Positions 477-20,035 of a stretch of DNA of 20,082 nucleotides are shown in pieces; the stretch's first letter is position 1; every line of letters begins with the position of its first letter. The position numbers were made by a program, and so were the translations under genes. The notes beneath the pieces were generated by a model. It was given only the letters and a program-made list of their open reading frames with translations, ran no database searches and had not been told where the DNA came from. This DNA is from a virus, in the IMG/VR virus record IMGVR_UViG_3300043775_003321, positions 1 to 20,082 of that record; one strand, given 5' to 3'.

Positions 477-2700
477 AGCGAAGAAGTCAAAAAAGGATCT
501 GCTGACGCGCATCCGCGAACGCTATAAAGCGATGTCGGAAGCGGACCAGGAGAACCGTCGCCACGCGATGGAGGATCTGAAGTTTGCACTCGTCCCCGGT
601 GAACAGTGGGACGACAAGCAGAAGACGGACCGCGGCCTTCGCCCGTGCTACGAGTTCAACAAGATTCGCGTCACCGGCAAGCGCATCGTGAACGACATGC
701 GCGCCAACCGCCCGCAGGGCAAGGTGCGCGCCGTGGAGGATGGCGACAAGGCGTCGTCCGAGGCGCTCGCGGGCTTGGCGCGCAACATCTGGCACGTCTC
801 GGATGGCGATACCGTCATCGACTACGCCGGCGAATATCAGGTATTCGCCGGAATGGGTGCCTGGCGCGTCGTCCTCGACTACGCGAACGATGACGTATTC
901 GAGCAGGACATCCGCGTCGAACCGCTGCGCAACCCGTTCTGCCTGTACTCCGATAACACGGCGTCGGACCCGATCAAGCGCGACGCAATGGACTGGATCG
1001 TCACCGATCGCATCCCGCGCGCCAGCTACGAACGCAAGTACCCGAAGGCGGAAGTGATCGAGTGGGAGTCGTCCGAGTTTGACGATGACGCCGACTGGGT
1101 GTCCGAGGATAGCGTCCGCATCTGCGAGTATTGGTACAAGGAACCCGTAGAGCGCACGCTGTTGCTGCTTTCCGATGGCAAGACCGTGCGCGAGGATGAG
1201 TTAACCCCGGAGCGCGTCGCGGCACTGACGGCGGCGGGCATCACGGTCGTCAAGTCGCGCGTCTCGCAGGCGCACGAAATCTATATGTGCATCGCCTCGG
1301 GCGAAGACATCCTCGAGGGGCCGACCAAGTACGTTGGCAAGGAATTCCCGTTCGTTGTCGTGTACGGCGAATGGGTCGTGATCGACGGCAAGCCGAAGTG
1401 GTGCGGCATCACCCGGTTCGCGAAGGACGCGCAGCGGTCCTATAACGTCTCGCGCACGGCGATCACGGAGACGATCGCGGCGGCCCCGCAGGCTAAGTAC
1501 CTTGCGACGCCCGACCAGTTGGCGGGCCTTGAGACGACGTGGGCGACGGCACACAAAGAAAATATGCCGTTCCTGCTGTACAACGCCGACCCCAAGGCAC
1601 CGGGTCCGCCGATGCGCATGGGCGGCGCGGAAGTGCCGGTTGCGCTGATTCAGGAATCGCAGCTTGCGTCCGAGGAAATCAAGTCGGTTACCGGCATCTT
1701 CGACGCCTCGCTCGGCAACAAGAGCAACGAGCAGAGCGGCATCGCGATCCGTTCGCGCCAGGCGCAGGGCGAGATTGCGACGTTCAACTACGCCGACAAC
1801 ATGGCGAAGGGCATCCGCCGGACGTGGGAAATCCTGATTGACCTGATCCCCAAGGTCTACGACACGCAGCGCACGGTGCGCGTGCTGGGCGTTGATGGTG
1901 CTGAAAAGTACCTGATGATCAACGGCCCCGACCCGCAGACGCAGGAGATCCGCGACATCACGCGCGGTAAGTACGACGTCGCGGTGACGACCGGCCCCGG
2001 CTTCTCGACGCAGCGCGAGATGGCCGCCGAGATTTATACCCAGATGATGCAGGCCAACCCGGCGCTGTTCCCGATTGCGGGCGACCTGATATTCAAGTCG
2101 ATGGATCTTCCGTACAGCGACAAGATGGCCGAGCGCATGCAGGCCATGTTACCGCCGCAGATCCAGCAGATGGAGAGCGAGGGAAAGGCGATTTCGCCCG
2201 AAGCGCAGGCCGTGATGATGCAGGCGCAGCAGGCGCTGCAGATGGCCGAGCAGCAGTCGCAGCTTGTGCAGCAGGCCGCCGCCGAAGTGCAGACCGATCA
2301 GCAGGCGTCGGAGAAGGCCAAGGCGGAAGTAGCCGTGGCTGCGGCGAACCTCAAGGTTCAAGAGGCGATGTTGCAGAAGCAGGTGGCCGAGTTCAAGACG
2401 CTGGTCGCGGAGACGCAAGCGCAGATGGTCGAGCAGCGTCAGGCGGAAGTGGCCGACGACCACGAAAAAGCCAAGGCCGACCGCGAAACGCTGTCGAAGG
2501 CGGTGCCAGAGGCCATCGAGTTGCTGCAGGCGCAGGCGAACGCCGTCATGGAAGCGTCGGCGCAGGTTCTGCAGCAGGTGCAGGCCGTCGCGCAGATGCA
2601 GGCGCAGACGATCGCGCAACCCAAGCCGCGCATCGTCGGCATCAAGAAGCAAGGCCCCGGAATGATGGTCCCAATCTATGAAGATCAGGTGGTTCAGTAA
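469..2700 (+). CDS. Portal protein, P22 type
   Basis: The portal forms the dodecameric ring at one capsid vertex through which DNA enters and leaves and to which the tail factors attach. At 743 residues it is close to the P22 portal (725). The N-terminal part (about residues 10-60) has the basic start and EQWDDKQKTDRGLRPCYEFN stretch usual for the family. The core contains typical portal phrases such as SGIAIRSRQAQGE and MAKGIRRTWEILIDLIP (about residues 420-465). From about residue 560 to 715 the chain becomes a long Gln/Ala/Glu-rich helical coiled coil, matching the alpha-helical barrel of P22-like portals. It follows terminase with an 8-base overlap. No strong ribosome binding site is seen, so coupling to terminase translation is likely. 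Confidence 0.95.
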   Translation: MAKAKKSKKDLLTRIRERYKAMSEADQENRRHAMEDLKFALVPGEQWDDKQKTDRGLRPCYEFNKIRVTGKRIVNDMRANRPQGKVRAVEDGDKASSEALAGLARNIWHVSDGDTVIDYAGEYQVFAGMGAWRVVLDYANDDVFEQDIRVEPLRNPFCLYSDNTASDPIKRDAMDWIVTDRIPRASYERKYPKAEVIEWESSEFDDDADWVSEDSVRICEYWYKEPVERTLLLLSDGKTVREDELTPERVAALTAAGITVVKSRVSQAHEIYMCIASGEDILEGPTKYVGKEFPFVVVYGEWVVIDGKPKWCGITRFAKDAQRSYNVSRTAITETIAAAPQAKYLATPDQLAGLETTWATAHKENMPFLLYNADPKAPGPPMRMGGAEVPVALIQESQLASEEIKSVTGIFDASLGNKSNEQSGIAIRSRQAQGEIATFNYADNMAKGIRRTWEILIDLIPKVYDTQRTVRVLGVDGAEKYLMINGPDPQTQEIRDITRGKYDVAVTTGPGFSTQREMAAEIYTQMMQANPALFPIAGDLIFKSMDLPYSDKMAERMQAMLPPQIQQMESEGKAISPEAQAVMMQAQQALQMAEQQSQLVQQAAAEVQTDQQASEKAKAEVAVAAANLKVQEAMLQKQVAEFKTLVAETQAQMVEQRQAEVADDHEKAKADRETLSKAVPEAIELLQAQANAVMEASAQVLQQVQAVAQMQAQTIAQPKPRIVGIKKQGPGMMVPIYEDQVVQ

Positions 2701-3107
2701 TGGCTATTCAGTTCTCGGTTGCAGTGCGTAACGCGCGACTTGACACCATCGAGTCAACCATCGGCGTCTCAGCGGTGCTGAAGATCCGAACCGGCGCAGC
2801 CCCCGTAAGCGTTGCGACCGCTGACAGCGGCACGGTCCTTGCGACGATGAACCTGCCGTCCGACTGGATGGCGGCGGCATCAGGCGGCGCGAAGGGGTAC
2901 ACCGCAACGTGGCAGGACGCGAGCGCGGATAACCCCGGCACTGCGGAGCATTTCCGTATCTACGCGAGCGACGGCACCACGCAGCACATGCAGGGCACCG
3001 TTACCGCGACGGGCGGCGGCGGCGACTTGCAGCTCGACAGCACGTCGATCACGGCCGGCCAGACCGTGACCATCACCGCGTTCACTCTCACAGACGGTAA
3101 CGCCTAA
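2700..3107 (+). CDS. Small beta-rich putative virion protein
   Basis: The 135-residue product is not assigned to a named family. It begins MAIQFSVAVRNARLDTIES, continues with short alternating hydrophilic and hydrophobic stretches (KIRTGAAPVSVA, GYTATWQDA, FRIYASDGTT) and ends with a Thr/Ile-rich beta segment (STSITAGQTVTITAF). There is no signal peptide, membrane segment or catalytic motif, which suggests a small beta-sandwich structural protein. Its ATG overlaps the portal TAA by one base, and AGGTGG about ten bases upstream can serve as ribosome binding site. It is the first of four genes between portal and scaffold, where P22 has none. A decoration or fibre-attachment role is inference from position only. 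Confidence 0.75.
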   Translation: MAIQFSVAVRNARLDTIESTIGVSAVLKIRTGAAPVSVATADSGTVLATMNLPSDWMAAASGGAKGYTATWQDASADNPGTAEHFRIYASDGTTQHMQGTVTATGGGGDLQLDSTSITAGQTVTITAFTLTDGNA

Positions 3108-3542
3108 GTGGCCGACAACGTAGGGTATACGCCAGGAATCGGCGCGTCCGTCGCCGCTGACGAGATCGGCGGTGTACTTCATCAGCGCGTCAAGCTCAGT
3201 ATCGGCGCAGATGGTTCGGCGGTAGACGCCTCTGCCGACAACCCGCTGCCGACCGCAGCGTCGCGCGTCGAAGATGTCCTCGCGATGCTGAGTCGCGTCG
3301 TCAAGTTGCTGGAGTCAAACGCCGTCGTCGACCAGCAGCAGCGCCAGCGCATCTCGCTTGATGCAATTGCTGCCGGCCTTACGCTTGGCACCGTCACCAC
3401 GGTCGGCACCGTGACCGCCGTGACCACCGTTAGCACGGTAGCCGCGCAGACTGCGATGGCCGGCATGGATCGCGAAATGTACATCAACACCGCGAAGCAG
3501 ACGTATGCCAACAGCATCCGGCTGCAACTGCAATTCACCTGA
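3108..3542 (+). CDS. Hypothetical phage structural protein with Val/Thr repeat
   Basis: The 144-residue protein starts at GTG, immediately after the preceding stop. The start is supported because the following residues, MADNVGYTPG then DEIGGVLHQRVKLS, resemble the N-terminus shared by many phage proteins of this size. Three parts can be seen: a beta-like N-terminus, a helical middle (VEDVLAMLSRVVKLLESNA, about residues 60-80, then a Gln-rich QQQRQR), and a Val/Thr tract (TVTTVGTVTAVTTVSTV, about residues 97-113), followed by a conserved-looking end (MYINTAKQTYANSIR). Such Val/Thr tracts recur in phage virion proteins, but their function is not known to me. It belongs to the portal-scaffold insertion and is probably a virion component. 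Confidence 0.75.
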   Translation: MADNVGYTPGIGASVAADEIGGVLHQRVKLSIGADGSAVDASADNPLPTAASRVEDVLAMLSRVVKLLESNAVVDQQQRQRISLDAIAAGLTLGTVTTVGTVTAVTTVSTVAAQTAMAGMDREMYINTAKQTYANSIRLQLQFT

Positions 3543-3551
3543 GCCTAAATA

Positions 3552-6392
3552 ATGCCCGCACTAAACAAAAACACTCTGACGCAGGCCGTAGACCTCCCGA
3601 CGTGGGAGTGGACGCGATTCGCGCCTGCGGTGTCGTCTGCGGTGTCGTCTGCATGCTCTGCGGATAACAGCGACTTTCTGCAGTCCGAGCATGGGCGGTA
3701 CATCTATTACCTGATCTCGTCGACGCAGTTCGTCCGCTACGACACTTGGACGGACATGTATCAGCAGCTTGCGTCGCCTGCGGTGGCTCTGGCGTCGTTC
3801 TCGTCGATGAAGTTCTCCGGTGCATACGGGCCAGAGGGCAACGTCCTCGCGGCGACCTCGACCACGCTGACGGTGCCTGCGGTCACGCAGCAATCGCTGA
3901 AGGGCTACGACGTCAGCATCGTGTCGGGCACGGGCGCGGGCCAGCGTCGCACGATCACGGGCGTGGCCGAGCCGGTTGTCGCTGATCTCGGCGTCGTCAC
4001 TGCAGTGAACAACGTAATCGGCGCTCTCACGCTGACGGACAGCACAAAGACTTGGGTCGTCAACCAGTTCGCCGGATTCACGGTGCGAATCTCGGGTAAC
4101 GCCGGTGTCGGCCAAGTTCGCCGCATTCTGTCGAACAGCGCGACTGTTCTGACGCTTGGCGACACCACGCAGATGAACAAGTTCTATCACAACCCGGCGA
4201 TCTTCGCGCCTGCGGTCGTGTCCACTGCGGGTTCGCAGAGCGCGTATCAGATCGAGTCGCAGGTACTCACGGTCGATACGGCTTGGGGCACGACGCCGGA
4301 TTCCACGTCGGTGTTCCGCATCGCTTCGGGCATCGTGATGCTTGCGTCGGGCAACGCCGCTGCGCCGTTCTACACGCAGCAGGCGTATGACATTATCACC
4401 GATACTTGGTACATCCTCGGCTCGCAGTCGGGCTTGCTGGTGTCCGCCGCGACGGACCTCAGCATTGAGCGCACGACCGAGAATGCGTCGATCTGGGCGC
4501 GCGGCACCGCAACGGCAGGCACCGCGACGACGCTCGTCGATGGTTCGCGCGGAGTCGATTCCGCCGTATGGCGCACGAACCAGTGGGCGGGATACTGGGT
4601 CTACGTGTTCAGCGGCACGGCGGCGGGCCAGATGCGCCAGATCGCCAGCAATACCGGGACCACGCTAACGTGGGTCGCCTCTGGCACCGCGCCTGACACG
4701 ACCAGCCGATACATGATCATCGGTTTCGATGCGGGTACTGCCACCTCGGGCGCGTCGACTACGCTGACCGACTCGGGGAAAACGTGGACGGTCAACCGCT
4801 GGGCAAACTACGCGGTGCGTATCCTGTTCGGCACAGGCGCGGGTCAACTGCGGCCCATTGCGAGCAACACCGCGACTGCGCTGACGGTTGTCTCCGCGTG
4901 GACCACCACGCCGGATTCGACCAGTGTCTATGCCATTCAGGGCGACCCCGACAAGCTCTACATTTTTGCAGCCGGTCACGGATCGATTCCGATCCAGAAT
5001 ATCGAGTCCGGCGTTGCAACATTCGGGCGGCAGGTCGACTTTGGCATCGCCCGCATCGCGTCCGCGACGGTAGCGGGGCATCTGCCGGTGGCCATCGCGT
5101 CGGTTGCGAACGCCTCGACGACCGCGACCGTGACCACGGCACACCCGCACCAGTTCAAAATTGGCGATCTGGTGACGGTGCGCGGCGCGACGGATGCGAA
5201 CTTCAACGTCAGCGCCGTCGCAATTGCCACGGTGCCGTCGACGACGACGTTTACCTACACGATGGCCGGCACGCCTGCGTCAACCACGATTGTCAGCGCG
5301 CAGACCACCAGCATCCTGGTCGACGCTTCCAAGAACTGGACGGTCAACGAACACGCGGGCCGCACGGTTCACATGTACACCGGTGCCATCACCACCGCGT
5401 CGGGTGCTGCAACGGGGCAGGCTGTCCGCATCGCGTCGAATACCGCGACGACCCTGACCTTTGTGGTCGCTGCAACCGCGCCGACCAACGGCGTCTCGCG
5501 CTACTCGATTGCAACCTCGACCGCTATCGGAGCGTTTGATCAGGGCATCGCTACCGGCACGCAGAGCGCGACGACGCTGCAGGATACGACCAAGGTAGGC
5601 TCGTTCACTGTCGCGAACACCAGCGGCAGCGCCTTGATCACGGTCAACGCGGTCGGTTCGGGACAGCTTTACGTCGGTCACGCCGTCTCTGGCACTGGCA
5701 TCCCGGCGGGCGCAGTCATCGCCGCTTTCGGCACTGGCACGGGCGGCATCGGCACCTACACCCTGTCGATGAACTGCACGTCGACCAATGCCAGCATCAC
5801 GATGGCGTCGGGCTGGGTAGTCAACGCCTACGCCGGCAAGCGAGTTCGCTTTCTCGGCACCAGCGGCCCCATTGAAATCGCCATCGCGAGCAACACGAAT
5901 AACACGCTGACGTTCGCCTCTACGACCGCGCCTGTCACCCTGCAGACGGGCTACGCGATCGTTGAAGGCACGGTGCGCGGTGCTGGGACGGTGGCCAATT
6001 GGGCATTTGGCACCAGCGATGCGGCGCTGCGGGGGCGGTACATCTACGTCACGCGCGGCGGAGGAATCAACGGTTTCGACCGGGTTGATCTTGTGGCCGA
6101 CCGCGTGAGCCTGATGATGACCTCGCCGCTGACCGAAACGCTCACCACGGGCACGATGGCAGCCTATGACGGCGGCGACCGGATCTACTTCCACAAGGAC
6201 GCGACGCAGCGCGTCTATTCGCTCGATGTCGTCACCGGCAAGATCAACGGCGCGAGCATGTACCCCTATGCCGCGCCGACGGCCATCCTCGGCAACCGCA
6301 TGGAAATCTTCGTCACCAAAGACGGCCTGAAGTACCTGTGGCTGAACCGGGCGAGCTTTGCAGAGTGTTTCCGCTGCCTCGCGTTCTGGTAG
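3552..6392 (+). CDS. Large repetitive beta-rich virion protein (propeller-like with repeat modules)
   Basis: This 946-residue protein has no named homologue that I can assign. Its most obvious feature is a module of about 70-80 residues with the pattern TTLxDxxKxWxVNxxAGxxVRxxxGxGAGQxRxIASNTxTxLT, ending in TxPDxTSxYxI. Copies of varying quality lie near residues 100-150, 150-240, 318-393, 394-463, 584-660 and 669-806. Two other beta modules interrupt the series, at about 512-580 (TTAHPHQFKIGDLVTV) and 685-753 (GTGIPAGAVIAAFGTGTGG). Between the arrays are short blade-like segments with Tyr/Asp/Trp patterns, near residues 49-77 (RYIYYLIS), 278-297 (YDIITDTWYILG), 468-495, 829-860 and 877-905 (RIYFHKDATQRVYSLD), suggesting a beta-propeller core. 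It is very likely a virion or fibre-like protein. The promoter region and ribosome binding site are unremarkable. Confidence 0.8.
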   Translation: MPALNKNTLTQAVDLPTWEWTRFAPAVSSAVSSACSADNSDFLQSEHGRYIYYLISSTQFVRYDTWTDMYQQLASPAVALASFSSMKFSGAYGPEGNVLAATSTTLTVPAVTQQSLKGYDVSIVSGTGAGQRRTITGVAEPVVADLGVVTAVNNVIGALTLTDSTKTWVVNQFAGFTVRISGNAGVGQVRRILSNSATVLTLGDTTQMNKFYHNPAIFAPAVVSTAGSQSAYQIESQVLTVDTAWGTTPDSTSVFRIASGIVMLASGNAAAPFYTQQAYDIITDTWYILGSQSGLLVSAATDLSIERTTENASIWARGTATAGTATTLVDGSRGVDSAVWRTNQWAGYWVYVFSGTAAGQMRQIASNTGTTLTWVASGTAPDTTSRYMIIGFDAGTATSGASTTLTDSGKTWTVNRWANYAVRILFGTGAGQLRPIASNTATALTVVSAWTTTPDSTSVYAIQGDPDKLYIFAAGHGSIPIQNIESGVATFGRQVDFGIARIASATVAGHLPVAIASVANASTTATVTTAHPHQFKIGDLVTVRGATDANFNVSAVAIATVPSTTTFTYTMAGTPASTTIVSAQTTSILVDASKNWTVNEHAGRTVHMYTGAITTASGAATGQAVRIASNTATTLTFVVAATAPTNGVSRYSIATSTAIGAFDQGIATGTQSATTLQDTTKVGSFTVANTSGSALITVNAVGSGQLYVGHAVSGTGIPAGAVIAAFGTGTGGIGTYTLSMNCTSTNASITMASGWVVNAYAGKRVRFLGTSGPIEIAIASNTNNTLTFASTTAPVTLQTGYAIVEGTVRGAGTVANWAFGTSDAALRGRYIYVTRGGGINGFDRVDLVADRVSLMMTSPLTETLTTGTMAAYDGGDRIYFHKDATQRVYSLDVVTGKINGASMYPYAAPTAILGNRMEIFVTKDGLKYLWLNRASFAECFRCLAFW

Positions 6393-6443: not shown

Positions 6444-7208
6444 ATGACCCTGCTGACCCTTTTATCGGACGCCCAAAATGTAAGCGGCACGCTTGGCACG
6501 CTTGCCAAGACGCTCGACGATGCCACGACGCGCACGGGCGTCGCGCTGCCGCTGCTGTTCACGTCCGGTGCGTACAGCAACGCCACCGGCACAGTCGCGG
6601 CAGGCAGCGGGGCGGTTACCGGGTCGCTCTCGGTCACGCTCGATGGCGTAACGAGTGCCGGCACCGGCACCGTGCGCGTCTCTGGCAGCCTCAGCGCCAC
6701 GCTAGGCGCAGTGGCGCTCTCAGGCACAGGCGCCGTCTCAAGCGGCCCCAATGGCTCGCTAGCGGCCACGCTGGGCAATGTCACGGCAGCGGCGACCGGC
6801 ACCGTCACGGGCGTCGGCACGGCTCCCAAGCCCGAGCAGCCGTCGGGCGGCTACGGTGCGCAGAACGAATACAACGCCGCACGGCAGCGCAGGAAGCGCC
6901 GTAAGCGTGATGAAGACGAGTCAAAGCCGCCCGATTCCCTCTCCATCGTGGCGCAGGCAGGGCCGGGGTCGTCTGATGCTACCCAGACGGCCCCGGCTGC
7001 TGACCTGGAGTTGGTGCGCCAGTTGGTGGCGTACTGGTCCGGCGAGGGCGACCGCGAGCGACTGAACCGACGCGCGCAACGCGCACTGGACTACGCCCTG
7101 CGGGCGCAGTCGGTGTTGGCGATGCAGCTCTTTGAACGTGAACTGGCCCGGCAGATGGAGGAAGACGCCGACATGCAGGCGCTCCTGCTGATCCTGGCCG
7201 ACGACTAA
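6444..7208 (+). CDS. Hypothetical protein: three beta repeats fused to a charged helical tail
   Basis: The 254-residue product has a clear two-part build. Residues about 60-125 hold three copies of a repeat of roughly 21-23 residues beginning GSLSVTLDGV (60), GSLSATLGAV (81) and GSLAATLGNV (104), each ending in a TGTV/TGAV strand. After a Pro/Gly linker and a very basic cluster (RQRRKRRKRDEDE, about 145-160), the C-terminal 80 residues form a charged helix (RLNRRAQRALDYALRAQSVL, QLFERELARQMEEDADMQ). No enzyme motif is present. The repeat resembles the short Ser/Leu/Thr beta repeats found in phage fibre-type proteins. The gene sits just before the scaffold gene, so a role in head assembly or decoration is plausible but unproven. 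Confidence 0.75.
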   Translation: MTLLTLLSDAQNVSGTLGTLAKTLDDATTRTGVALPLLFTSGAYSNATGTVAAGSGAVTGSLSVTLDGVTSAGTGTVRVSGSLSATLGAVALSGTGAVSSGPNGSLAATLGNVTAAATGTVTGVGTAPKPEQPSGGYGAQNEYNAARQRRKRRKRDEDESKPPDSLSIVAQAGPGSSDATQTAPAADLELVRQLVAYWSGEGDRERLNRRAQRALDYALRAQSVLAMQLFERELARQMEEDADMQALLLILADD

Positions 7209-9407: not shown

Positions 9408-10187
9408 ATGGCTTTTAAGAAACGGGAACCTGACGGAAAGAAGAATCGACTTTGGGCCTACATCGCGACGCCTGCCTATGACGGCAAGGTCAACAGCGAA
9501 TATGCCCTGTCGATCGCACAAGGGATGCAGGCACTGACCCTATACGGGATCAACGCCACCGTGGCCGTAATGGGCAATGGAGCCTTCATCGACCTTGCGC
9601 GCAATGCTTTCGTGCGCATGTTCCTGAAAACGGAATGCACGCATCTCTTTTTTATCGACTCGGATTTGGAGTTTGAGCCGCACGCGATGGCCGCGCTGAT
9701 TGGTGCAGGCAAGCCGATCTGCGCCGGGCTGTACCGGCGTCGCCAGGAACCGGAAGACTATCCGGTGCGCTGGGTGAATCATCCCGAGCAGGGCGGCCTT
9801 TGGGTGGAGGAAGACCGCTGGCTGATGTGCGACCGGGTGCCGACCGGGTTCCTCTGCATCGAGCGCAAGGTCATTGAGGAAATGGCGGCGGACTCGCTGA
9901 AGCTGAACCTGCCCGGCAAGAACGAGCAGGGCACGCCACGGCTGTTCTATACGTTCGTGAACGAGGACAACGCCTACGTGGGCGAAGACTTCGCGTTCTG
10001 CGAGGACTACAAGAAGAAGTATGCCAAGCCGATCCCGGTGCTGATGGACCTGAACTTCAAGCACGGCGGTTACCAGTGCAACTTCTACCACTACCTCGAG
10101 CGTGAGGTAGACAAGGAAAAGCTGCGGCTCGCGAATGAGGAAGCGAACCCGTCCGGCATGGTCGAAGCCCTGACGAGTGCCGCATGA
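9408..10187 (+). CDS. Putative glycosyltransferase (GT-A fold)
   Basis: The 259-residue protein has the layout of a nucleotide-sugar-dependent GT-A glycosyltransferase. An N-terminal strand (YIATPAYDGKV, 18-28) is followed by IDLARNAFVRMFL (61-73) and THLFFIDSDLEFEP (78-91), whose D84-S85-D86 is the DxD metal/nucleotide-sugar motif. GEDFAFC (192-198) carries acidic residues suitable for the catalytic base or acceptor site. No signal peptide or membrane segment is seen, so it should be cytoplasmic and soluble. Its sugar and acceptor are unknown. It is followed by an overlapping methyltransferase gene, and both sit between coat and the gp4-like gene, where P22 has nothing. Modification of a virion protein or of host surface sugar is possible. 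Confidence 0.8.
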   Translation: MAFKKREPDGKKNRLWAYIATPAYDGKVNSEYALSIAQGMQALTLYGINATVAVMGNGAFIDLARNAFVRMFLKTECTHLFFIDSDLEFEPHAMAALIGAGKPICAGLYRRRQEPEDYPVRWVNHPEQGGLWVEEDRWLMCDRVPTGFLCIERKVIEEMAADSLKLNLPGKNEQGTPRLFYTFVNEDNAYVGEDFAFCEDYKKKYAKPIPVLMDLNFKHGGYQCNFYHYLEREVDKEKLRLANEEANPSGMVEALTSAA

Positions 10188-10711
10188 GCTACGCAGAACT
10201 GTTGCTCGGTTGCGGTAACGCACGGGACAAGCGTATCAAGTTCAACCTCGTTAGTGACGAGTGGCAGAACCTGACGACGCACGACATCGACCCCGATTCC
10301 GGCGCGGACGTCATCCACGACCTCGACGTGCTGCCTTATCCGTGGGCGGATAACTCGTTCGATGAGATCCACGCCTACGAGGTCATGGAGCATTGCGGCT
10401 CGCAGGGCGATGCCAAGTTCTTTTTCGCCCAGTGGGCCGAGCTGCATCGCATCCTGAAGCCGGGCGGTTTCTTTGTCTGCACCGTGCCGGCGTGGGATTC
10501 GCAGGTTGCCTGGTGCATGCCGGACCACAGGCGGGTGATTGCCGAGGGCAGCATCGCGATACTCGATCATCGGTACTACGACAACCTCGGCACGCCCGAG
10601 GGCAAGGGCAAGGCCGACTATCGCAAGGTGCTGGGTGCTACGCACTTCCAGTGCATGGCGCACACGCTGACGGCTGAAAACTTCGGCTTCGTACTACAGG
10701 CAGTGAAATGA
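10184..10711 (+). CDS. Putative SAM-dependent methyltransferase (class I)
   Basis: The 175-residue product resembles a small class I methyltransferase of the SAM-binding Rossmann type. Motif I is present as LLLGCGNARDK (6-16). An acidic THDIDPDSGADVIHDLDVLP segment (32-51) supplies the strand-2 acid and the next binding loop. FDEIHAYEVMEHCG (59-72) matches the usual post-motif helix, and LHRILKPGGFFVCTVP fits the strand-5 region with its KPGG turn. The substrate is unknown. Its ATG overlaps the glycosyltransferase TGA by four bases (ATGA) and its own stop overlaps the gp4-like gene in the same way. This implies that it is made together with the glycosyltransferase and may methylate the same glycan. 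That pairing is inference. Confidence 0.85.
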   Translation: MSYAELLLGCGNARDKRIKFNLVSDEWQNLTTHDIDPDSGADVIHDLDVLPYPWADNSFDEIHAYEVMEHCGSQGDAKFFFAQWAELHRILKPGGFFVCTVPAWDSQVAWCMPDHRRVIAEGSIAILDHRYYDNLGTPEGKGKADYRKVLGATHFQCMAHTLTAENFGFVLQAVK

Positions 10712-12479: not shown

Positions 12480-13570
12480 GCGGCATCGAGCGCGTACCGC
12501 TTCCGCCGATCCCTGACGGCCCGATCACGGGCGCGATGCTGCGAGACATCTTGTCGATCATGCAGCGCGACATGCTGCGATTCGCCGACGTGCGCAACGC
12601 GACGACCGACGAAGGCATCGTCGTCAGCGGCGGGGCGAACGGCTTTGCGCAGTTGTCCTACGCCGCTGGCGTACAGGACCGGGCGTTTCAGCCTCGCTAC
12701 CAGCCGCCGGTTGCCACCAACCCTGGCGGCGCGACCACGCAGGTTCAGTTCAACGACGCGGGCGCATTCGGTGGCGACGCTGGTCTAGCGTTCAACAAGA
12801 CGACCAACGTGCTGCAGCTCGGCGAGTCGGGCACGGCGGGCAAGTTTGAAGCCCCGAGCCTGTCGGGCGCATCCGGCCTCGCGCTGACCGTGGAGGCGGG
12901 CGATACGTCGTTCAGCGGTGGCACTGGCGGCGCGCTGACGCTGCGAGCCGGGACACCCACGGCGGGGCCGGGCGGCCTCGTGCTGTTAGAGGCTACGGCC
13001 GGAGTCGGGTCTAATCGCGCGGGCGGTGGCCTGACGATCAACGGCGGGGCTGCAACGGGTTCGGCGAACGGTGGTGCCGTTACCATCACCTCAGGCGCAT
13101 CGCCTGGCGGATCAGCAGGGACGCTGTTCCTTATTGCCGGAACTTCCGCGACCGGAACTTCGGCTGGCGTCGTCATGAACGGCGGTGCCGGGACTGACAC
13201 TGCCAGCGGTGGAGGATTTGCGGCGCAAGCGGGCGACGGCGGCCCCAATGGCGGCGCTGGCGGCCTCTGCAGCTTCGTGAGTGGCAACGCATTTGGCACC
13301 GGCGACAACGCAGGCGCTATCACGTTCACAGCAGGCTATTCGATTGACGCTGACGGTGGCAGCATTTCGTTCACAACGGGCGATGCGCTGGTAGGCCAGA
13401 TCGGAAATATCAATTTCACCATCGCGAACGGGTCTGGCGGCAGCGGCGGCACCGTGGGCACGCTGGTCTTTACGGGAGTTCCCACAACTGGGTCGGCCGG
13501 CGCGATTGCGGGGTATCTGGTCGTGACCATCGACGGCACTAGCCGAAAAATCCCGTATTACGCCACATGA
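12476..13570 (+). CDS. Glycine-rich fibre-like protein in the tail-needle position
   Basis: The open frame extends back to an ATG at 12452, but I choose ATG 12476 (MSGIERVPLPPIPDGPITGA) because it gives the four-base ATGA overlap used elsewhere in this operon. The product is then 364 residues. After a short helical start (MLRDILSIMQRDMLRFADVR, about 23-42) comes TTQVQFNDAGAFGGDAGLAF, a phrase common in phage fibre proteins. A long Gly/Ala/Ser/Thr-rich region of about 220 residues follows, with GGA/GGG turns every 8-15 residues that look like short beta repeats. The end, YLVVTIDGTSRKIPYYAT, is typical of phage and viral fibre C-termini. P22 encodes its tail needle gp26 here, but the sequence shows no gp26-like coiled coil. 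A functional substitute is inference. Confidence 0.7.
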   Translation: MSGIERVPLPPIPDGPITGAMLRDILSIMQRDMLRFADVRNATTDEGIVVSGGANGFAQLSYAAGVQDRAFQPRYQPPVATNPGGATTQVQFNDAGAFGGDAGLAFNKTTNVLQLGESGTAGKFEAPSLSGASGLALTVEAGDTSFSGGTGGALTLRAGTPTAGPGGLVLLEATAGVGSNRAGGGLTINGGAATGSANGGAVTITSGASPGGSAGTLFLIAGTSATGTSAGVVMNGGAGTDTASGGGFAAQAGDGGPNGGAGGLCSFVSGNAFGTGDNAGAITFTAGYSIDADGGSISFTTGDALVGQIGNINFTIANGSGGSGGTVGTLVFTGVPTTGSAGAIAGYLVVTIDGTSRKIPYYAT

Positions 13571-13875
13571 AGACGCGCGTTATCGAAATCAGCGCCAAAG
13601 TGTGCGCCCTCCAGGCGTTCCTCGGCGACCGTTGGAGTACGTTGGAGCGCGGAACGCTGGACGCCATGACGAAGCGAGCGGACGCCCTTAGCGCGCCGCC
13701 GGTCCCTGAGGTTGGCAAAGTCCCGCCCGAGCCGGTTGCTGAGGTTGTCCTCGAGTACAACCGCGAAGGCGTAAAGCTCGTGGACAAGATAGAACTTGTT
13801 TTCGGCGACAACCCGGACACCAAGGAAATAGAAACCCAGTGGCGCAAGAAGCGCGCCGGGAAGCGTGATGGCTAG
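13567..13875 (+). CDS. Hypothetical small helical protein
   Basis: This 102-residue protein is not recognised. It appears mostly helical, with an N-terminal helix (VIEISAKVCALQAFLGDRWS), a Pro-rich linker (SAPPVPEVGKVPPEPV, about 42-58) and a charged C-terminus ending in basic residues (QWRKKRAGKRDG). There is no signal peptide or membrane segment. Its ATG overlaps the previous stop (ATGA), and its end overlaps the next gene by 8 bases, so it is a true member of the late operon. Minor virion protein or assembly chaperone are equally open. Confidence 0.65.
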   Translation: MKTRVIEISAKVCALQAFLGDRWSTLERGTLDAMTKRADALSAPPVPEVGKVPPEPVAEVVLEYNREGVKLVDKIELVFGDNPDTKEIETQWRKKRAGKRDG

Positions 13876-14227
13876 ATATTCGCGCACTCACCTGACCGGC
13901 AGCACGTCGGGCCGGCCGATCCCAGTTGCCGCCACGGCGACGCCTGGCACGCTGATCCACACGGCGACCGCAACGGCGGCCGACTACGACGAACTGTGGC
14001 TGTGGGTGTCGAACGTCACCGGCACGGCGGCGACGCTCACCCTTGAGTGGGGCGGCGTCACGGACCCAGGTCAATTGCTTGTCAAGGCTTACAGCGTGTC
14101 GGCCAACAACGCGCCGATTCTGGTCTCTAACGGCCTCACGCTTAACGGTGGCGTCGTCGTTCGTGCCTTCAGCGGCACGGGTGCGGCGCTGAACATCACC
14201 GGATATATCAACAGGATCACAGCATGA
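13868..14227 (+). CDS. Small beta-sandwich virion protein
   Basis: The 119-residue product starts MARYSRTHLTGSTSGRP and then forms a run of beta strands: TLIHTATATAADYDELWLWV, LTLEWGGVTDPG, APILVSNGLTLNGGVVVRAF and LNITGYINRIT. This pattern, ending in GYINRIT, resembles a small family I have seen in many tailed phages near structural genes, probably a fibre or decoration subunit. I cannot name a proven function. The in-frame GTG at 13865 is directly before the ATG. I prefer the ATG at 13868, with GGGAAG about seven bases upstream. Its stop overlaps the next ATG by four bases. Confidence 0.7.
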   Translation: MARYSRTHLTGSTSGRPIPVAATATPGTLIHTATATAADYDELWLWVSNVTGTAATLTLEWGGVTDPGQLLVKAYSVSANNAPILVSNGLTLNGGVVVRAFSGTGAALNITGYINRITA

Positions 14228-14802
14228 TCGGTGCATTAATTGCGGGCGCTTCCGTCGTCAGCGGCCTCCTTGGTTCCAGTTCCTCGCGCAGTGCCGCGCG
14301 TGCGCAGCAGCAGTCGGCGGACGCCGCGACGGCCGAGCAGCGTCGTCATTTCGACATCACGCAGCAGAACCAAGCCCCGTGGCTCGAAGCGGGCCGCAAC
14401 GCGCTCGGCCGGCTGCAAGACCCCAATGCATTCCAGGCCGACCCCGGCTATCAGTTCGCGCGTCAGCAGGGCATGCAGGGCATTGAGCGCAGCGCGGCGG
14501 CTCGCGGTGGCGCGGCCTCTGGCAACGCGCTCAAGGCGCTGGCGCAGTTCCAGACGGGGCTGGCCGACCAGACCTACGGCAACTGGTGGAACCGCCAGGC
14601 CGGGCTTGCCGGCGTCGGCCAGCAGTCGGCAAACATGCTCGGGCAGTTCGGCCAGCAGTCGGCGAACAACATCGGCCAACTGCAGATGGCGGGCGGCGAG
14701 GCTCGAGCGAGCGGCATTCTCGGGCAGGCGAACAGCCTGTCGAACTCGCTCAATAGCGGGCTGAACAACTATCTGCTGTATCGCGGCGGAGCATTCGGCT
14801 AA
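14224..14802 (+). CDS. Ejection (DNA transfer) protein 1, P22 gp7/p32-like
   Basis: This 192-residue protein resembles the DNA transfer proteins that are packed in the head and injected to form a conduit across the cell envelope. It begins with a hydrophobic small-residue helix (IGALIAGASVVSGLLGSS, 2-19), then an Ala/Gln-rich helix. It carries the phrases QNQAPWLEAGRNAL, PGYQFARQQGMQGIERSAAA, RGGAASGNALKAL and FQTGLADQTYGNWWNRQ, which recur in proteins usually annotated as DNA transfer protein p32. The C-terminal part repeats GQQSAN twice (about 138-156). The gene opens a three-gene block that matches P22 genes 7, 20 and 16 in position. Confidence 0.8.
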   Translation: MIGALIAGASVVSGLLGSSSSRSAARAQQQSADAATAEQRRHFDITQQNQAPWLEAGRNALGRLQDPNAFQADPGYQFARQQGMQGIERSAAARGGAASGNALKALAQFQTGLADQTYGNWWNRQAGLAGVGQQSANMLGQFGQQSANNIGQLQMAGGEARASGILGQANSLSNSLNSGLNNYLLYRGGAFG

Positions 14803-15830
14803 TGGCTGTCAACCAACTCATCGCACAGGGCTTGCGTCCCATTGGCGCGGATGCGCCGCAGATCGCCAACATGCTGCAGCAGATGCAGCAGCAGAAGCAG
14901 CAGAACGCGCTGGCGCGGCAGGAACTTGGTATCCGTTCTCAGAACGCAGGTGCCGTGCAGATGAATGCGCAGACCGCGGCGACGAATGCGCAGCGTGAGG
15001 CGACCAAAGAGCAATACGCCTACCTCGCCAACGTCGGCACCGCGCTCGCCAATGCCAAGACGCCAGAGGAATTCGCGATGCTCGCCGATCGCGTCACCGC
15101 GTCGCCGCAGTACCAGTCGATCCCCGATGCGCTGCCTCGCGAGCAACTGACGCCCGAAGTCGTGCGCGCGACGCTGCCTGAGGTGTTCGCGCGAGCTGGG
15201 ATGCAGATGCCGCAGGCCCCAGTTCCGTTTGAGCAGACCGCCGACTACGCAAAACTGAAGATGCAGGGCGAGCAGGCGGCTGCGCTTGAGCGGCAGCGGG
15301 CAGGCAGCGCAATGCAGCTCGAGCGGACCCGGCAGGCCGGTGCAAAAACGACCGCCCCCGCCGCCCCTGCTGGCTATCGATACAAGGATGACGGAAGCAT
15401 GGAGGCGGTCCCTGGCGGGCCTGCTGACGTTAAACTGAATCCGCCCAAGAAACTGAGCGACGCAAAAGATGTCCTCGGGATCATTGCCATCGCGGAACCG
15501 CTGCTCAACAAGGCAACGGGAAGTTACATCGGAACCGGCGTGGATAAGGCTGCGCAGGCTTTTGGCAAGTCCACGGGCGGCAGTGTGGCTATCTCTCAGC
15601 TCAAGGCGCTGCAGGCGGCGCTAATGCTCAAGATGCCGCGCATGGAAGGGCCGCAGTCGAACCTTGACGTTCAGCTTTACCGAGAAGCCGCCGGCACCAT
15701 TGGCGACCCGACTGTCCCCGTCGAAAACAAGCGGGCGGCGCTTGGCGTCGTCAAGCAGATGAACGAGAAGTACACGGGAGGACGCACTTCTGGCGCGACT
15801 GGCGTCTGGTCCGTAGAGGAAGTGAAGTAA
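14802..15830 (+). CDS. Putative ejection protein 2 (coiled-coil internal virion protein)
   Basis: The 342-residue product overlaps the previous gene by one base (TAATG) and is the middle gene of the ejection block, equivalent in place to P22 gene 20. Residues about 25-75 are a Gln/Ala-rich helix (NMLQQMQQQKQQNALARQ), followed by a helical region to about 110. A second charged helix spans about 145-175 (KMQGEQAAALERQRAGSAMQ). After a Pro/Ala linker, the C-terminal 140 residues form a more compact helical domain (KKLSDAKDVLGIIAIAEPLL, ISQLKALQAALMLKMPRMEG). No enzymatic motif is seen. The assignment rests on position and composition rather than a recognised family signature. Confidence 0.7.
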   Translation: MAVNQLIAQGLRPIGADAPQIANMLQQMQQQKQQNALARQELGIRSQNAGAVQMNAQTAATNAQREATKEQYAYLANVGTALANAKTPEEFAMLADRVTASPQYQSIPDALPREQLTPEVVRATLPEVFARAGMQMPQAPVPFEQTADYAKLKMQGEQAAALERQRAGSAMQLERTRQAGAKTTAPAAPAGYRYKDDGSMEAVPGGPADVKLNPPKKLSDAKDVLGIIAIAEPLLNKATGSYIGTGVDKAAQAFGKSTGGSVAISQLKALQAALMLKMPRMEGPQSNLDVQLYREAAGTIGDPTVPVENKRAALGVVKQMNEKYTGGRTSGATGVWSVEEVK

Positions 15831-17422
15831 TGCCCGTATTCCAGATCACGGCACCGGATGGGCGCAAGTTTCGCGTCACCGGGCCGGAAGGATCAACCAA
15901 GGAACAGGCGCTGGCGCAAGTTCAGCAGCAGGCGGAACGGCCGCAATCGGCAGAGGCTCCTGCAAGCCCGACTGACGGGGCAACTTTTGGCGAGAACTTT
16001 AGTGCGGGCGTCGGCAAGTCGTTTGTTGATACCGGGCGCGGAATCGGCCAACTGATTGCCGGCATCGGCGCGAAGGTAATGCCGTCGGTGTACCAGCCGA
16101 TTGCCGACAACATACAGGCCGGGGTCGATGAAGCCACGCGCCTTGACGCTCCGCTGATGGCGACCGGCGGCGGTATTACAGGAAACATTGCCGGGCAGGC
16201 TGCGCAGTTTGCTATTCCTGGCAGTGCCGTTGCCGGCGGCGGCCTCAAGTTGCTTCCCCGTCTCGCGCGAGGCGCGGCGGCTGGCGCTGCCATTGCGAAT
16301 ACGCAGCCCGTGACCGGCGAGCAGACTCGCTTGGGCAACACAGCATTCGGCGCAGCCGGCGGTGCGGCGGGCGAGGGCATCGCGGCAGGGATTGGCCGGC
16401 TGGCGGCTGGCTCGTCTAACAAGATTTCGCCGGAAGTTCGCGCGCTTGCCAAACGGGCAAAGGATCTCGGCATCCCGCTTCGCGCAGAACAGGTCTCTGG
16501 AAGTCGGCCGCTGGCTGGTGTATCCGCCGCGCTTGATGCCGTCCCGTTCTCGGGCCGCGATGCGTCGCGCGACACGCAACGCCTTGCCTTCAATCGGGCT
16601 GTATCGCGCACGTTCGGCCAGAACACGGCAAATCTTAAGACGGCCGTGGATCAGGCTGAAAATGTGCTCGGTGCCAAGTATGACGCTGTACTGAAGAACC
16701 ACGGCGTCAATGTTGACAACCAGATGCTGACCGACCTTCAGTCGGTAGCCAGCGCCGCGCGGAACGAAATGACGGATGCGCAGTTTTCCGTCATCCAACG
16801 GAACATCGACAACATCATCGGCAAGGTTGGCCCGAACAATCAGATAGACGCAGAGGCGGCTTACAACATCAAAAAGCTGCTGGATCGGATCGGGAAGTCG
16901 AGTGATTCCTCACTGGCAAATCACGCCCGCGATCTTCGGTCGGTCGTTATCCAGGCGCTAGACCGTTCGCTGCCTCCCGATGTCGCTCGGGGTTTCACCG
17001 AAACTCGCGCGCAGTACAAGAACCTTATTGACGTCCGCAAGCTGGTGAAGGCTGGCGCTGAAGGCAATGTCAGCCCCGCTGTATTGGGGAACAAGTCCGG
17101 CCTGTCGCCCAAGCTTAAGGAAATCGCCGACATCGGCGCACAGTTCCTGAAAGAGCCTTTCGGAAACAGCGGCACGCAGAACAGAACTGTCGGCCTTGGC
17201 ATCCTTGGCGGGCTTGGCGCTGGCGCGATGTTTAACCCAGCACTGGCGATTCAAACTGCGGCGGGTGGCGCGACCATTGGCCGTGGGGCAAATGCGCTGC
17301 TGCAGTCGCCGGGCTTCGTGAACTACCAACTTGCCGGATCGAACACGCTCAGACGTTCGCTCCCCTACGCAAACGCGCTGTTACCCGCGTTTGGCGCGAC
17401 TGGCGCGGTCGCGAGCCAGTAA
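15830..17422 (+). CDS. Putative ejection protein 3 (P22 gp16 position)
   Basis: The 530-residue protein starts with a short domain, FQITAPDGRKFRVTGPEGST and the helix KEQALAQVQQQ (3-36), widely seen at the N-terminus of phage ejection and internal virion proteins. Then follow long Gly/Ala-rich amphipathic and hydrophobic stretches (about 60-195, such as IGQLIAGIGAKVMPSVYQPI and AAGAAIAN). A helical middle (about 200-430) and another hydrophobic Gly/Ala stretch (GLGILGGLGAGAMFNPALAI, about 453-475) complete it. Such membrane-seeking regions suit a protein that inserts into the host envelope at injection. I see no lytic transglycosylase motif. It is read by one-base TAATG coupling, with GAGGAAG as a ribosome binding site. 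Confidence 0.78.
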   Translation: MPVFQITAPDGRKFRVTGPEGSTKEQALAQVQQQAERPQSAEAPASPTDGATFGENFSAGVGKSFVDTGRGIGQLIAGIGAKVMPSVYQPIADNIQAGVDEATRLDAPLMATGGGITGNIAGQAAQFAIPGSAVAGGGLKLLPRLARGAAAGAAIANTQPVTGEQTRLGNTAFGAAGGAAGEGIAAGIGRLAAGSSNKISPEVRALAKRAKDLGIPLRAEQVSGSRPLAGVSAALDAVPFSGRDASRDTQRLAFNRAVSRTFGQNTANLKTAVDQAENVLGAKYDAVLKNHGVNVDNQMLTDLQSVASAARNEMTDAQFSVIQRNIDNIIGKVGPNNQIDAEAAYNIKKLLDRIGKSSDSSLANHARDLRSVVIQALDRSLPPDVARGFTETRAQYKNLIDVRKLVKAGAEGNVSPAVLGNKSGLSPKLKEIADIGAQFLKEPFGNSGTQNRTVGLGILGGLGAGAMFNPALAIQTAAGGATIGRGANALLQSPGFVNYQLAGSNTLRRSLPYANALLPAFGATGAVASQ

Positions 17423-17551
17423 CTGCTTGAACCAGCCGGGCGGCGCAGCCCGGTACGCGATCTCGACCAGGGATCGCGACACAAACCGAAAGAGAAACAC
17501 CACGAGCGGCGTTAGCGCCAGCGCGATGAACGTGGCTGTTCGCTGTTCCAT
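17381..17551 (-). CDS. Small single-span membrane protein, opposite strand
   Basis: This 56-residue ORF is the only plausible minus-strand gene. The product begins MEQRTATFIALALTPLVVFL, giving a transmembrane helix at about residues 7-23. A positively charged amphipathic tail follows (RFVSRSLVEIAYRAAPPGWF, then KQLLARDRASRAKRG), so the positive-inside rule places the C-terminus in the cytoplasm. It fills the 147-base gap between the ejection and tailspike genes, and its last 42 bases overlap the end of the ejection gene antisense. No clear Shine-Dalgarno precedes the ATG, and no convincing promoter is seen. P22 carries its opposite-strand superinfection-exclusion gene sieA in the same interval, so a similar moron role is attractive but unproven. 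Confidence 0.55.
   Translation of the reverse strand: MEQRTATFIALALTPLVVFLFRFVSRSLVEIAYRAAPPGWFKQLLARDRASRAKRG
17436..17453. other. Hairpin 1 in the ejection-tailspike gap
   Basis: CCGGGC (17436-17441) and GCCCGG (17448-17453) form a perfect six-base stem with loop GGCGCA, 13 bases after the ejection gene stop. No T tract follows on either strand, so it is not an intrinsic terminator. It lies inside the minus-strand ORF. Confidence 0.4.
17456..17478. other. Hairpin 2 in the ejection-tailspike gap
   Basis: CGCGATCTC (17456-17464) pairs with GGGATCGCG (17470-17478), nine pairs including one G-U, with a five-base loop. It starts two bases after hairpin 1, so the two make a tandem structure between the ejection and tailspike genes. 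It may separate the two genes at the RNA level or mark a processing site. Both roles are inference. Confidence 0.4.
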
Positions 17552-17569: not shown

Positions 17570-19255
17570 GTGCTGTTTAGCGATCCTGTTACCACGCCAG
17601 TAGACGCCCAAGGCGACCCGTACCCCGGCGCAAAGGCGCACTTCTACCTCGCCGGCACCCTCACCCCGGCGACCGTCTACGCCGACGCGGGGCTGACCAC
17701 GGCGCTCAGTAACCCCGTGGTGGCGAACGCCAGCGGCCAGTTCGTGCCGATCTACCTCGACCCCACGGTAACCTATCGGCGCATCCTGCGCGACGCTAGT
17801 GACGTGCTGTTGCGTGACAACGACAACATCAACACCGCGAGTCTGACGCAAGCATCGGTGGGACTGGTGCTGTTCCCGCGCTCGGCTAACGAGATCGCGA
17901 CCAGCGTCACGCCGTCGAACTACGCTTATCCGGTGGGCGACATCCGCCGATATGGCGCGGTGAGCGGCGACGGCAACTGCGCGACGGCGTTCACCAATGC
18001 GCTGCTCGCGACCAACCATGTCACGGTGCCGGTCGGCGACTGGCGCGTGGATACCACGGTCGAGATCACCGAGAACCGCACCGTACGGCTTGAGGCGGGC
18101 GCAGTCGTCACCCGCTACAGCGCCTTCAGCGTGGCTACCACGCCCGTGTTCTGGCTCTCGTGGAGCCAGGGCGCGTTGATCGGCAGCGGCATCGGCTCAC
18201 AGGTCAAGTCGCAGAACCGCGCCCCGGATGGCGTCGTGCTGATCGGCTTCACGTCGATGACCACGAGCTTCGGCCGGGACGTGCTGTATTGCACCGTCCG
18301 CGACGTACTGCTGCGCGGTTCGACCAACTACGGCCAGACGACGGGCAACCCGGATGCCTGCCTGAAGATCATCAACGCGCAGCTAGACGGAAAGGCCAGC
18401 TACTTCCACATCATCAGTAACGTGGTGTTCAACGCCGCAAACTACGGGCTGTGGCTGCAGGGCTGGGCGAACGGGTTGCAGATGAGCAACCTGCACTTTT
18501 ACTGGATCGGGAACGACACGCTGGCGAGCAAGGCGGCGATCTTTTCGCAGGGCGCGCTTGATAACGCCTGCGCGGGCGTGTTCCACCACTTCAGCCCGAA
18601 TACCCCGACGATCCGTATCGAGGACTACGACAACACCGCGACCTCTGGCGGGTCGCTTCACGTCACGAGTTACAGCAGCTACAGCAACATCGTCTGCGAA
18701 CAGGACGGCGCGAGCGCCTACGCGCTGGTTGCAAATGCCACCTGCACCGCGTTCAAGAACTACATCCAGATCGTGGATAACGTGGCGCTGGCCTACAGCA
18801 TCAGCAACAATTTCCGCGACGGCAACAATCTGATTTTCACGTCCACGGGCGCGCGGTTTGAGGATGTCCAGATCAGCGACGACCTGAGCGTCGGCGACGA
18901 CGCCTCAGTGGCCGGCACGCTGACCGTGGCGCAGGTGAAAGACACCACCACCGCGCCGACCTACGGGGCATCGGTCGCGATCAACGCGGCGCTGGGTAAT
19001 CACTTCGTGATCGTGGTCACGGATACCAGCGCCTTCACCATCGCGAACCCGACCAACCCGACAGCGGGCCAGATGATCAGCCTGAACATCCGCAACGGCT
19101 CGGGCGGGTCGATGGGCGCGATCACCTGGGGCGGCGACTTCCGCCTGTCAGCGTGGACGAACCCGGCGAACGGCTATAGCCGCAGCATTCAATTCCGCTA
19201 TTACGGTACGACGTGGGTCGAGGAATCCCGTACCGCTGCCGACGTGCTGAACTGA
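17570..19255 (+). CDS. Tailspike / receptor-binding protein
   Basis: The 561-residue protein has three parts. Residues 1-90 (FSDPVTTPVDAQGDPYPGAK, ASGQFVPIYLDPTVTYRRIL) form the adaptor found at the N-terminus of many phage fibres and spikes, which attaches the spike to the tail. From about residue 120 (YPVGDIRRYGAVSGDGN) to 440, the chain has the spacing of a pectate-lyase-like right-handed beta-helix, the usual body for binding or cleaving surface polysaccharide. Residues about 464-561 (GASVAINAALGNHFVIVVTD, FRLSAWTNPANGYSRSIQFR, WVEESRTAADV) are a C-terminal beta domain shared among spikes, probably for trimerisation. Catalytic residues cannot be named with certainty. It starts at GTG with its own ribosome binding site. 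Confidence 0.88.
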   Translation: MLFSDPVTTPVDAQGDPYPGAKAHFYLAGTLTPATVYADAGLTTALSNPVVANASGQFVPIYLDPTVTYRRILRDASDVLLRDNDNINTASLTQASVGLVLFPRSANEIATSVTPSNYAYPVGDIRRYGAVSGDGNCATAFTNALLATNHVTVPVGDWRVDTTVEITENRTVRLEAGAVVTRYSAFSVATTPVFWLSWSQGALIGSGIGSQVKSQNRAPDGVVLIGFTSMTTSFGRDVLYCTVRDVLLRGSTNYGQTTGNPDACLKIINAQLDGKASYFHIISNVVFNAANYGLWLQGWANGLQMSNLHFYWIGNDTLASKAAIFSQGALDNACAGVFHHFSPNTPTIRIEDYDNTATSGGSLHVTSYSSYSNIVCEQDGASAYALVANATCTAFKNYIQIVDNVALAYSISNNFRDGNNLIFTSTGARFEDVQISDDLSVGDDASVAGTLTVAQVKDTTTAPTYGASVAINAALGNHFVIVVTDTSAFTIANPTNPTAGQMISLNIRNGSGGSMGAITWGGDFRLSAWTNPANGYSRSIQFRYYGTTWVEESRTAADVLN

Positions 19256-19515
19256 TGAGCGAGGAACGCATCACGTCCCTCGAGGACGAAGTTAAAGACC
19301 TGCGCATTTCGAACACCGATTTGCGCATTGCCAACGCCAAGCTGGCCTCGTCCATCGAGCATCTGGTGAAAGCCGTGGACGCGCTGACGCTCGTCGTGCA
19401 GTCGCAGCGTGACACGATGAACCAGGGGCGCGGCATTCTCGTTACGCTGATGTTTGTCAGCGGCTCCATCGGGGCGATCGTCGCGACGCTCATCAAGAAA
19501 CTGTTTGGCGGCTGA
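19255..19515 (+). CDS. Holin-like membrane protein 1 with N-terminal coiled coil
   Basis: The frame is open from 19213, but the ATG at 19255 is chosen because it overlaps the tailspike TGA (TGATG). The product is 86 residues. The N-terminal half is a heptad-patterned coiled coil (ITSLEDEVKDLRISNTDLRI, continuing to about residue 50), and residues 61-80 (ILVTLMFVSGSIGAIVATLI) form one transmembrane helix followed by KKLFGG. This coiled-coil-plus-one-helix design resembles XhlA-type and other small phage lysis accessory proteins. It is the first gene of the lysis cassette and is joined to the endolysin by another TGATG overlap. Holin versus holin partner is undecided. Confidence 0.75.
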   Translation: MSEERITSLEDEVKDLRISNTDLRIANAKLASSIEHLVKAVDALTLVVQSQRDTMNQGRGILVTLMFVSGSIGAIVATLIKKLFGG

Positions 19516-19853
19516 TGGAGACGCTACGCCAGAAGCAGAGCCGATTCGCGCGCCTTGTGCCTCGGCTAATCGACAAGGCGTATCTACTCGGATACGAGGT
19601 AACGCTAGGCGATGCATACCGTGACCCGCGCGTGCATGGCCCCATCGGCGTCAAGTTGGGATACGGGCACCGCAGCAGCGCGCACAAACAGCGCCTCGCG
19701 ATTGACCTCAATCTGTTCAAGGCCGGCGCGTTCATGGAAGGCACCGAGGCGCATCGCGAGCTTGGCGAATACTGGGAAACCCTCGGCGGCTCATGGGGCG
19801 GTCGGTGGGGAGACGGAAACCACTACAGCATCGAGGTCGATGGCATCCGATGA
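19515..19853 (+). CDS. Endolysin, M15-type peptidase
   Basis: The 112-residue protein matches the small M15 (VanY/D-Ala-D-Ala carboxypeptidase and L-alanyl-D-glutamate endopeptidase) phage lysins that cut peptidoglycan peptides. The zinc ligands are visible as H57 and D64 in SSAHKQRLAIDLNLF, with the H-x6-D spacing, and H103 in WGDGNHYSIE, with D100 just before it. The N-terminal part GYEVTLGDAYRDP (26-38) supplies the conserved arginine region, and GEYWETLGGSWGGRW (84-98) is typical of this group. There is no signal sequence, so release through a holin lesion is expected. Overlaps with its neighbours (1 and 4 bases) confirm the lysis cassette. Confidence 0.92.
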   Translation: METLRQKQSRFARLVPRLIDKAYLLGYEVTLGDAYRDPRVHGPIGVKLGYGHRSSAHKQRLAIDLNLFKAGAFMEGTEAHRELGEYWETLGGSWGGRWGDGNHYSIEVDGIR

Positions 19854-20035
19854 AAGCACTGATTGACCTTTACCATTTGCACGGCACCAAGATCCTCGGT
19901 TTTGCACAGGTGACGGTCGCCGTGCTGGCGACGTCCACGGGGCTGTTCCCCGACATTGCGCTCAAGTGGCTGATGCTGACATCCGGTCTCCTGACTGCGT
20001 GGCGCGGCTATGTCAACAGCGCCGCTCAAAAGTAG
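19850..20035 (+). CDS. Holin-like small membrane protein 2
   Basis: The frame is open from 19793, but the ATG at 19850 overlaps the endolysin TGA by four bases (ATGA) and gives a compact 61-residue protein. Two hydrophobic segments are seen, about residues 14-30 (KILGFAQVTVAVLATST) and 37-51 (IALKWLMLTSGLLTAWR), separated by GLFPD. The end WRGYVNSAAQK is hydrophilic and basic. This two-helix, roughly 60-residue design next to an endolysin is usual for phage holins or antiholins. Which of the two membrane proteins around the endolysin makes the hole cannot be told from sequence. Confidence 0.75.
   Translation: MKALIDLYHLHGTKILGFAQVTVAVLATSTGLFPDIALKWLMLTSGLLTAWRGYVNSAAQK

Follow-up and report, generated by a model that had tools for sequence, protein, structure and literature searches.

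The window analysed here comprises the 20,082 bases of an IMG/VR virus record. Its gene order is P22-like, with portal, scaffold, coat, and head-closure proteins followed by ejection genes, a tail gene, and lysis-type genes. A 946-aa ORF between the portal and scaffold genes (3552-6392) had no PHROG or Pfam family match, and the head-tail morphogenesis block contains a small methyltransferase-like gene (10184-10711; PF08241, E 1.6e-6). The lysis-type genes (19515-20035) are located on the late strand, 3' of the tail gene; they comprise an M15-type peptidase, a putative endolysin (19515-19853), and a small hydrophobic ORF after it (19850-20035) that may be a holin. The features at and around the junction between the ejection and tail genes are the following:

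14224..14802, plus strand, gp7-like ejection protein (phrog_598, DNA ejection)
14802..15830, plus strand, putative gp20-like ejection protein, assigned by position (phrog_33352, unknown function)
15830..17422, plus strand, gene for a gp16-like DNA ejection protein of 530 aa (phrog_26400, E 4.8e-47)
17381..17422, stretch shared tail to tail by the gp16-like gene (its 3' end) and the antisense gene (its last 13 codons plus stop), the two sets of codons being in register
17381..17551, minus strand, 56-codon antisense gene with a predicted N-terminal membrane helix, Pro-Gly turn, and basic second helix (translation, homologues, AlphaFold2)
17570..19255, plus strand, tail fibre/spike gene of 561 aa, starting with GTG and divergent from the adjacent antisense gene

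The antisense ORF runs from ATG to stop on the minus strand and encodes the product MEQRTATFIALALTPLVVFLFRFVSRSLVEIAYRAAPPGWFKQLLARDRASRAKRG. Its 3' end shares 42 nt with the end of the gp16-like gene, and its start lies 18 nt from that of the tail gene (17570, GTG). The original prediction of a single-span, basic-tailed 56-residue ORF between the ejection gene and the tail gene was borne out by translation, hydropathy, and charge: one hydrophobic span was found, with a best 19-residue Kyte-Doolittle mean of 2.18 from residue 6, and the C-terminal part is basic, with a net charge of +6 from residue 25. Since this GC-rich window contains 132 ORFs of at least 50 aa, and the 56 codons are nested in a longer open frame (212 codons, ATG at 18019), the size and hydrophobicity of the ORF alone are not beyond chance. 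It is raised above chance level by its conservation at the same junction in L011, L002, and many more relatives. The L011 homologue has a stop codon immediately upstream of its start, which supports the choice of ATG in the window and rules out the 212-codon version.

The earlier proposal to search phage genomes with the 56 residues gave nothing, as the single sequence had no match in phages, IMG/VR, or GTDB genomes. Relatives were reached only via the neighbouring gp16 gene and the reading of junctions. The gp16 search retrieved two diverged IMG/VR phages, L002 (39% identity) and L011 (58% over the C-terminal part). At the same place, L002 has a minus-strand small membrane ORF (6514-6714, 66 aa; BLASTP E 1e-6 in a single comparison) and L011 a minus-strand homologue (877-1047, 56 aa; profile E 1.9e-13); their identity to the window protein is about 35% and 57–59%, respectively. 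The corresponding junction of Rhodoferax phage P26218 (KP792623) carries an unannotated 53-aa ORF, sequence MSMLLAIFLKPFIAV..., which led by tblastn to MW202557 (58.5%). The alignment of these two, used as a query, retrieved 14 further IMG/VR contigs, in all of which the ORF lies antisense to a tail gene and, in contigs that extend far enough, also to the gp16 end. The two groups recognise each other: the window-group profile detected P26218-group members absent from its build (L030, E 5.5e-7; L035, E 6e-5), and the P26218-group profile detected L011 (E 3e-5), in both directions among 7661 ORFs. At this junction, Xanthomonas phage PBR31 carries a longer ORF that resembles the others in place and pattern; its membership is tentative because the independent profile score was non-significant (E 0.07–0.09).

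Family members are 53–66 aa long, and the window gene shows the full set of family features, namely an antisense position at the gp16/tail junction, overlap with the gp16 3' end, an N-terminal span, a P-x-G/S turn, a basic C-terminus, and a profile match. No PHROG, Pfam, NCBIfam, or PADLOC model matched the family. By sequence comparison, these proteins constitute a previously unrecognised family, missing from the annotation of both catalogued phages, P26218 and MW202557; the P26218 genome paper reported no ORF with a transmembrane helix (PMC4657236). The distribution is patchy. Homologues were not found in L006, L008, L009, L010, and L016-L018, which have related structural modules, or in L043-L045. 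L003, a relative by its tail gene, has a different gene upstream of the tail gene and no homologue. Acidovorax phage AP1, whose gp16 is related to that of PBR31, has an annotated minus-strand block downstream, yet no family member.

Selection was estimated on the codons outside the gp16 overlap. Ten relatives, which represent related sequences and not independent events, gave a pN/pS of 0.26 with no stops, and changes by antisense codon position of 304/136/658, fewest at position 2. The window-L011 pair had a dN/dS of about 0.32 outside the overlap. Ratios in the other frames were at least 1, except for the mirror frame (0.36), which shares third positions. These patterns indicate purifying selection on the antisense reading of the non-overlapping codons. 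The mirror frame is represented in databases: in MW202557 (L014), the same DNA interval (5985-6119) is annotated with a 44-aa hypothetical protein, UOF78610.1, on the opposite strand to the antisense gene. Were this gene on gp16's strand the real one, the antisense ORF would merely be its mirror image, and the frame is indeed open across the non-overlapping part in ten relatives, with common third codon positions. However, it has no start codon in L011, its ATG is lost in most relatives, L035 contains a stop, and its ends vary; moreover, the minimum of changes at antisense position 2 corresponds to position 1 of the mirror frame. Owing to the lost starts, the L035 stop, and the inconsistent ends, the same-strand gene was dropped as exceedingly improbable. 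The comparative evidence favours the antisense frame, and UOF78610.1 is probably a wrong-strand call of its mirror. Hardly more credible is the explanation that an antisense RNA is the functional product and the ORF is incidental. The tail-to-tail overlap with the gp16 3' end is retained, and the overlapped gp16 codons show low synonymous variation in relatives, which would fit an antisense RNA, but outside the overlap selection acts on amino acids, and the protein is recognisable in L002 although DNA and overlap phase differ. Because the amino acid selection is seen in the part not overlapping gp16, regulation of the ejection gene by the antisense overlap, which had been suggested for this locus, is unlikely as the main function. 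We regard the antisense ORF as an almost certainly genuine, unannotated protein-coding gene. The view that it encodes a small single-span membrane protein on the minus strand was upheld: sequence and place are kept across relatives, and the antisense frame, free of stops and frameshifts, is intact in every relative found.

The family consensus comprises a hydrophobic segment in which a proline is conserved (often as LLKPF), followed by a helix, the P-x-G/S turn, and a basic end. AlphaFold2 with the family alignment gave a helix at residues 2–35 and another at 40–55 (mean pLDDT 83.7); in this model a long N-terminal helix, predicted to lie in the membrane, is joined through a Pro-Gly turn to a second, basic helix. 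Under the positive-inside rule, the charge distribution predicts an N-out/C-in topology with the basic part in the cytoplasm; L002 departs from the charge pattern, its net charge after residue 25 being -1. Fold comparison with the two-helix model yielded no match below E 0.001, as expected, and a PDB profile search gave a single non-significant match to a designed protein.

Expression signals were variable. No convincing promoter was recognised upstream of the antisense gene, where only a promoter-like match ending at the start codon was seen. A Shine-Dalgarno sequence was not seen in the window, P26218, or MW202557; L034, L035, and PBR31 have a similar sequence ahead of the start codon, and L011 and L002 a weak one. 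Synonymous sites at the tail gene start showed no extra constraint that would mark a promoter, a result blurred by a codon insertion in one row. Late-strand terminator-like hairpins with T-runs were observed in the interval between the antisense and tail genes in L011 (1049-1077) and L019 (16637-16690), and none was evident in the window.

Among 91 non-independent pairs, identity of the small protein correlated more strongly with that of the gp16 C-terminus (Spearman 0.94) than with that of the tail gene (0.63–0.67). For example, L007 and L030 share 93% identity in gp16 and 83% in the small protein, but only 30% in the tail protein. The small protein therefore appears to travel with the ejection module. 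The L003 tail protein (2163-3860) is 63% identical to that of the window beyond residue ~100, while its N-terminus and upstream genes differ, which suggests an exchange of tail tips. Regarding lifestyle, an integrase is present in some relatives and was not found in others, including three IMG/VR relatives of about 37 kb; the window is a fragment. Rhodoferax phage P26218 was reported to be lytic (PMC4657236). The occurrence of the gene in this phage and in the three relatives without a detected integrase weakens a purely prophage-based role, and exclusion during lytic infection would be compatible with both.

Considering where the gene lies, its strand, the predicted membrane location, and its link with gp16, the likeliest role of this family of small, putatively inner-membrane proteins linked to ejection proteins would be in blocking or modulating how related phages get their DNA into the cell (probability about 0.4). 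The protein would be made outside the late operon, either early in infection or from a prophage, and would insert into the inner membrane, as predicted. It may act there at the site of DNA delivery by gp16 and its partners, blocking or modulating the DNA-entry conduit of related incoming phages, as SieA does from the same genomic position. A more specific version is somewhat less probable: a minimal single-span exclusion family that co-evolves with the ejection gene, is equivalent but not detectably related to SieA, and is spread in environmental P22-like podoviruses, including reported-lytic phages. Such a family would have been overlooked because it is very short and lies on the wrong strand.

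Other roles fit parts of the same evidence. The protein might aid the phage's own infection or assembly, for instance as a partner or chaperone, bound to the membrane, for gp16 or the incoming DNA. Its divergence co-varies with gp16, it occurs in the reported-lytic P26218 (PMC4657236) and in relatives without a detected integrase, and the modelled cytoplasmic basic helix could bind DNA or gp16. We nevertheless consider this unlikely, as all virion genes of the window are encoded on the other strand and the seven phages with related structural modules named above lack the gene. Still more doubtful is a membrane-active peptide, a single-span protein of the antiholin or type I toxin-like kind under the control of late antisense transcription. 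The length, the one span, and the basic tail would suit such a peptide, and the late gp16 and tail transcript would be antisense to the small-gene mRNA; on the other hand, the second helix and P-x-G/S turn are conserved, and the divergence follows gp16 and not a lysis gene, the lysis-type genes being separate on the late strand.

Whichever role applies, the annotation of sequenced podoviruses has overlooked a conserved protein gene or placed it on the wrong strand. The gp16-tracking divergence provides a concrete hypothesis for the target of the small protein, and, if the DNA-entry action is true, a version of about 53 residues would be easy to test.

HK97 gp15 and other small phage exclusion proteins are membrane proteins that block DNA entry. 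The present family resembles them in its small size, predicted membrane location, and proposed action on DNA entry; it matches none of the models searched. A second comparison concerns P22 SieA (PHROG 7745). P22 sieA is located on the minus strand (13336-13830), 22 bp after gene 16, and the window gene likewise lies between homologues of P22 genes 16 and 9 (the tail gene), with its coding strand opposite to the late genes. Both products are membrane proteins, by prediction here and by demonstration in the inner membrane for SieA (PMC10883804). SieA blocks DNA entry, and escape mutations occur in gp16 and gp20 (PMC10883804). The window protein differs in its 56 residues versus 162–164 for SieA (about 160–210 among its types), in one span versus three or more (PMC10883804), and in the absence of the SieA motif FxRYPxEAxxFNK from both the window translation and the family alignment. 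In P22, mnt, arc, and ant lie between sieA and the tailspike, whereas in the window the antisense gene alone fills the gap. Comparison of the family with SieA types A or B using hhalign gave a probability of 0.2% and E 0.3, and 71 of 200 column-shuffled controls scored at least as high. Membership of the SieA family was rejected on these controls, size, span number, and the missing motif. The P22 sieA analogy that had been drawn for this locus thus stood for position, strand, and membrane prediction, and failed for homology, the three spans, and the SieA motif. A recognisable relative of SieA does occur at such a junction in the E. coli HS prophage, on the opposite strand: a 212-aa gene, whose product shares 28% identity and the motif RYPGEA..FNK with SieA and which is a candidate for the type B sieA of PMC10883804. 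Within SieA itself, identity between types A, B, and C is also only about 25%. If the small protein does act at the DNA-entry step, the site that sieA takes in P22 would be a general home for ejection-policing genes, with different phage groups filling it with unrelated proteins.
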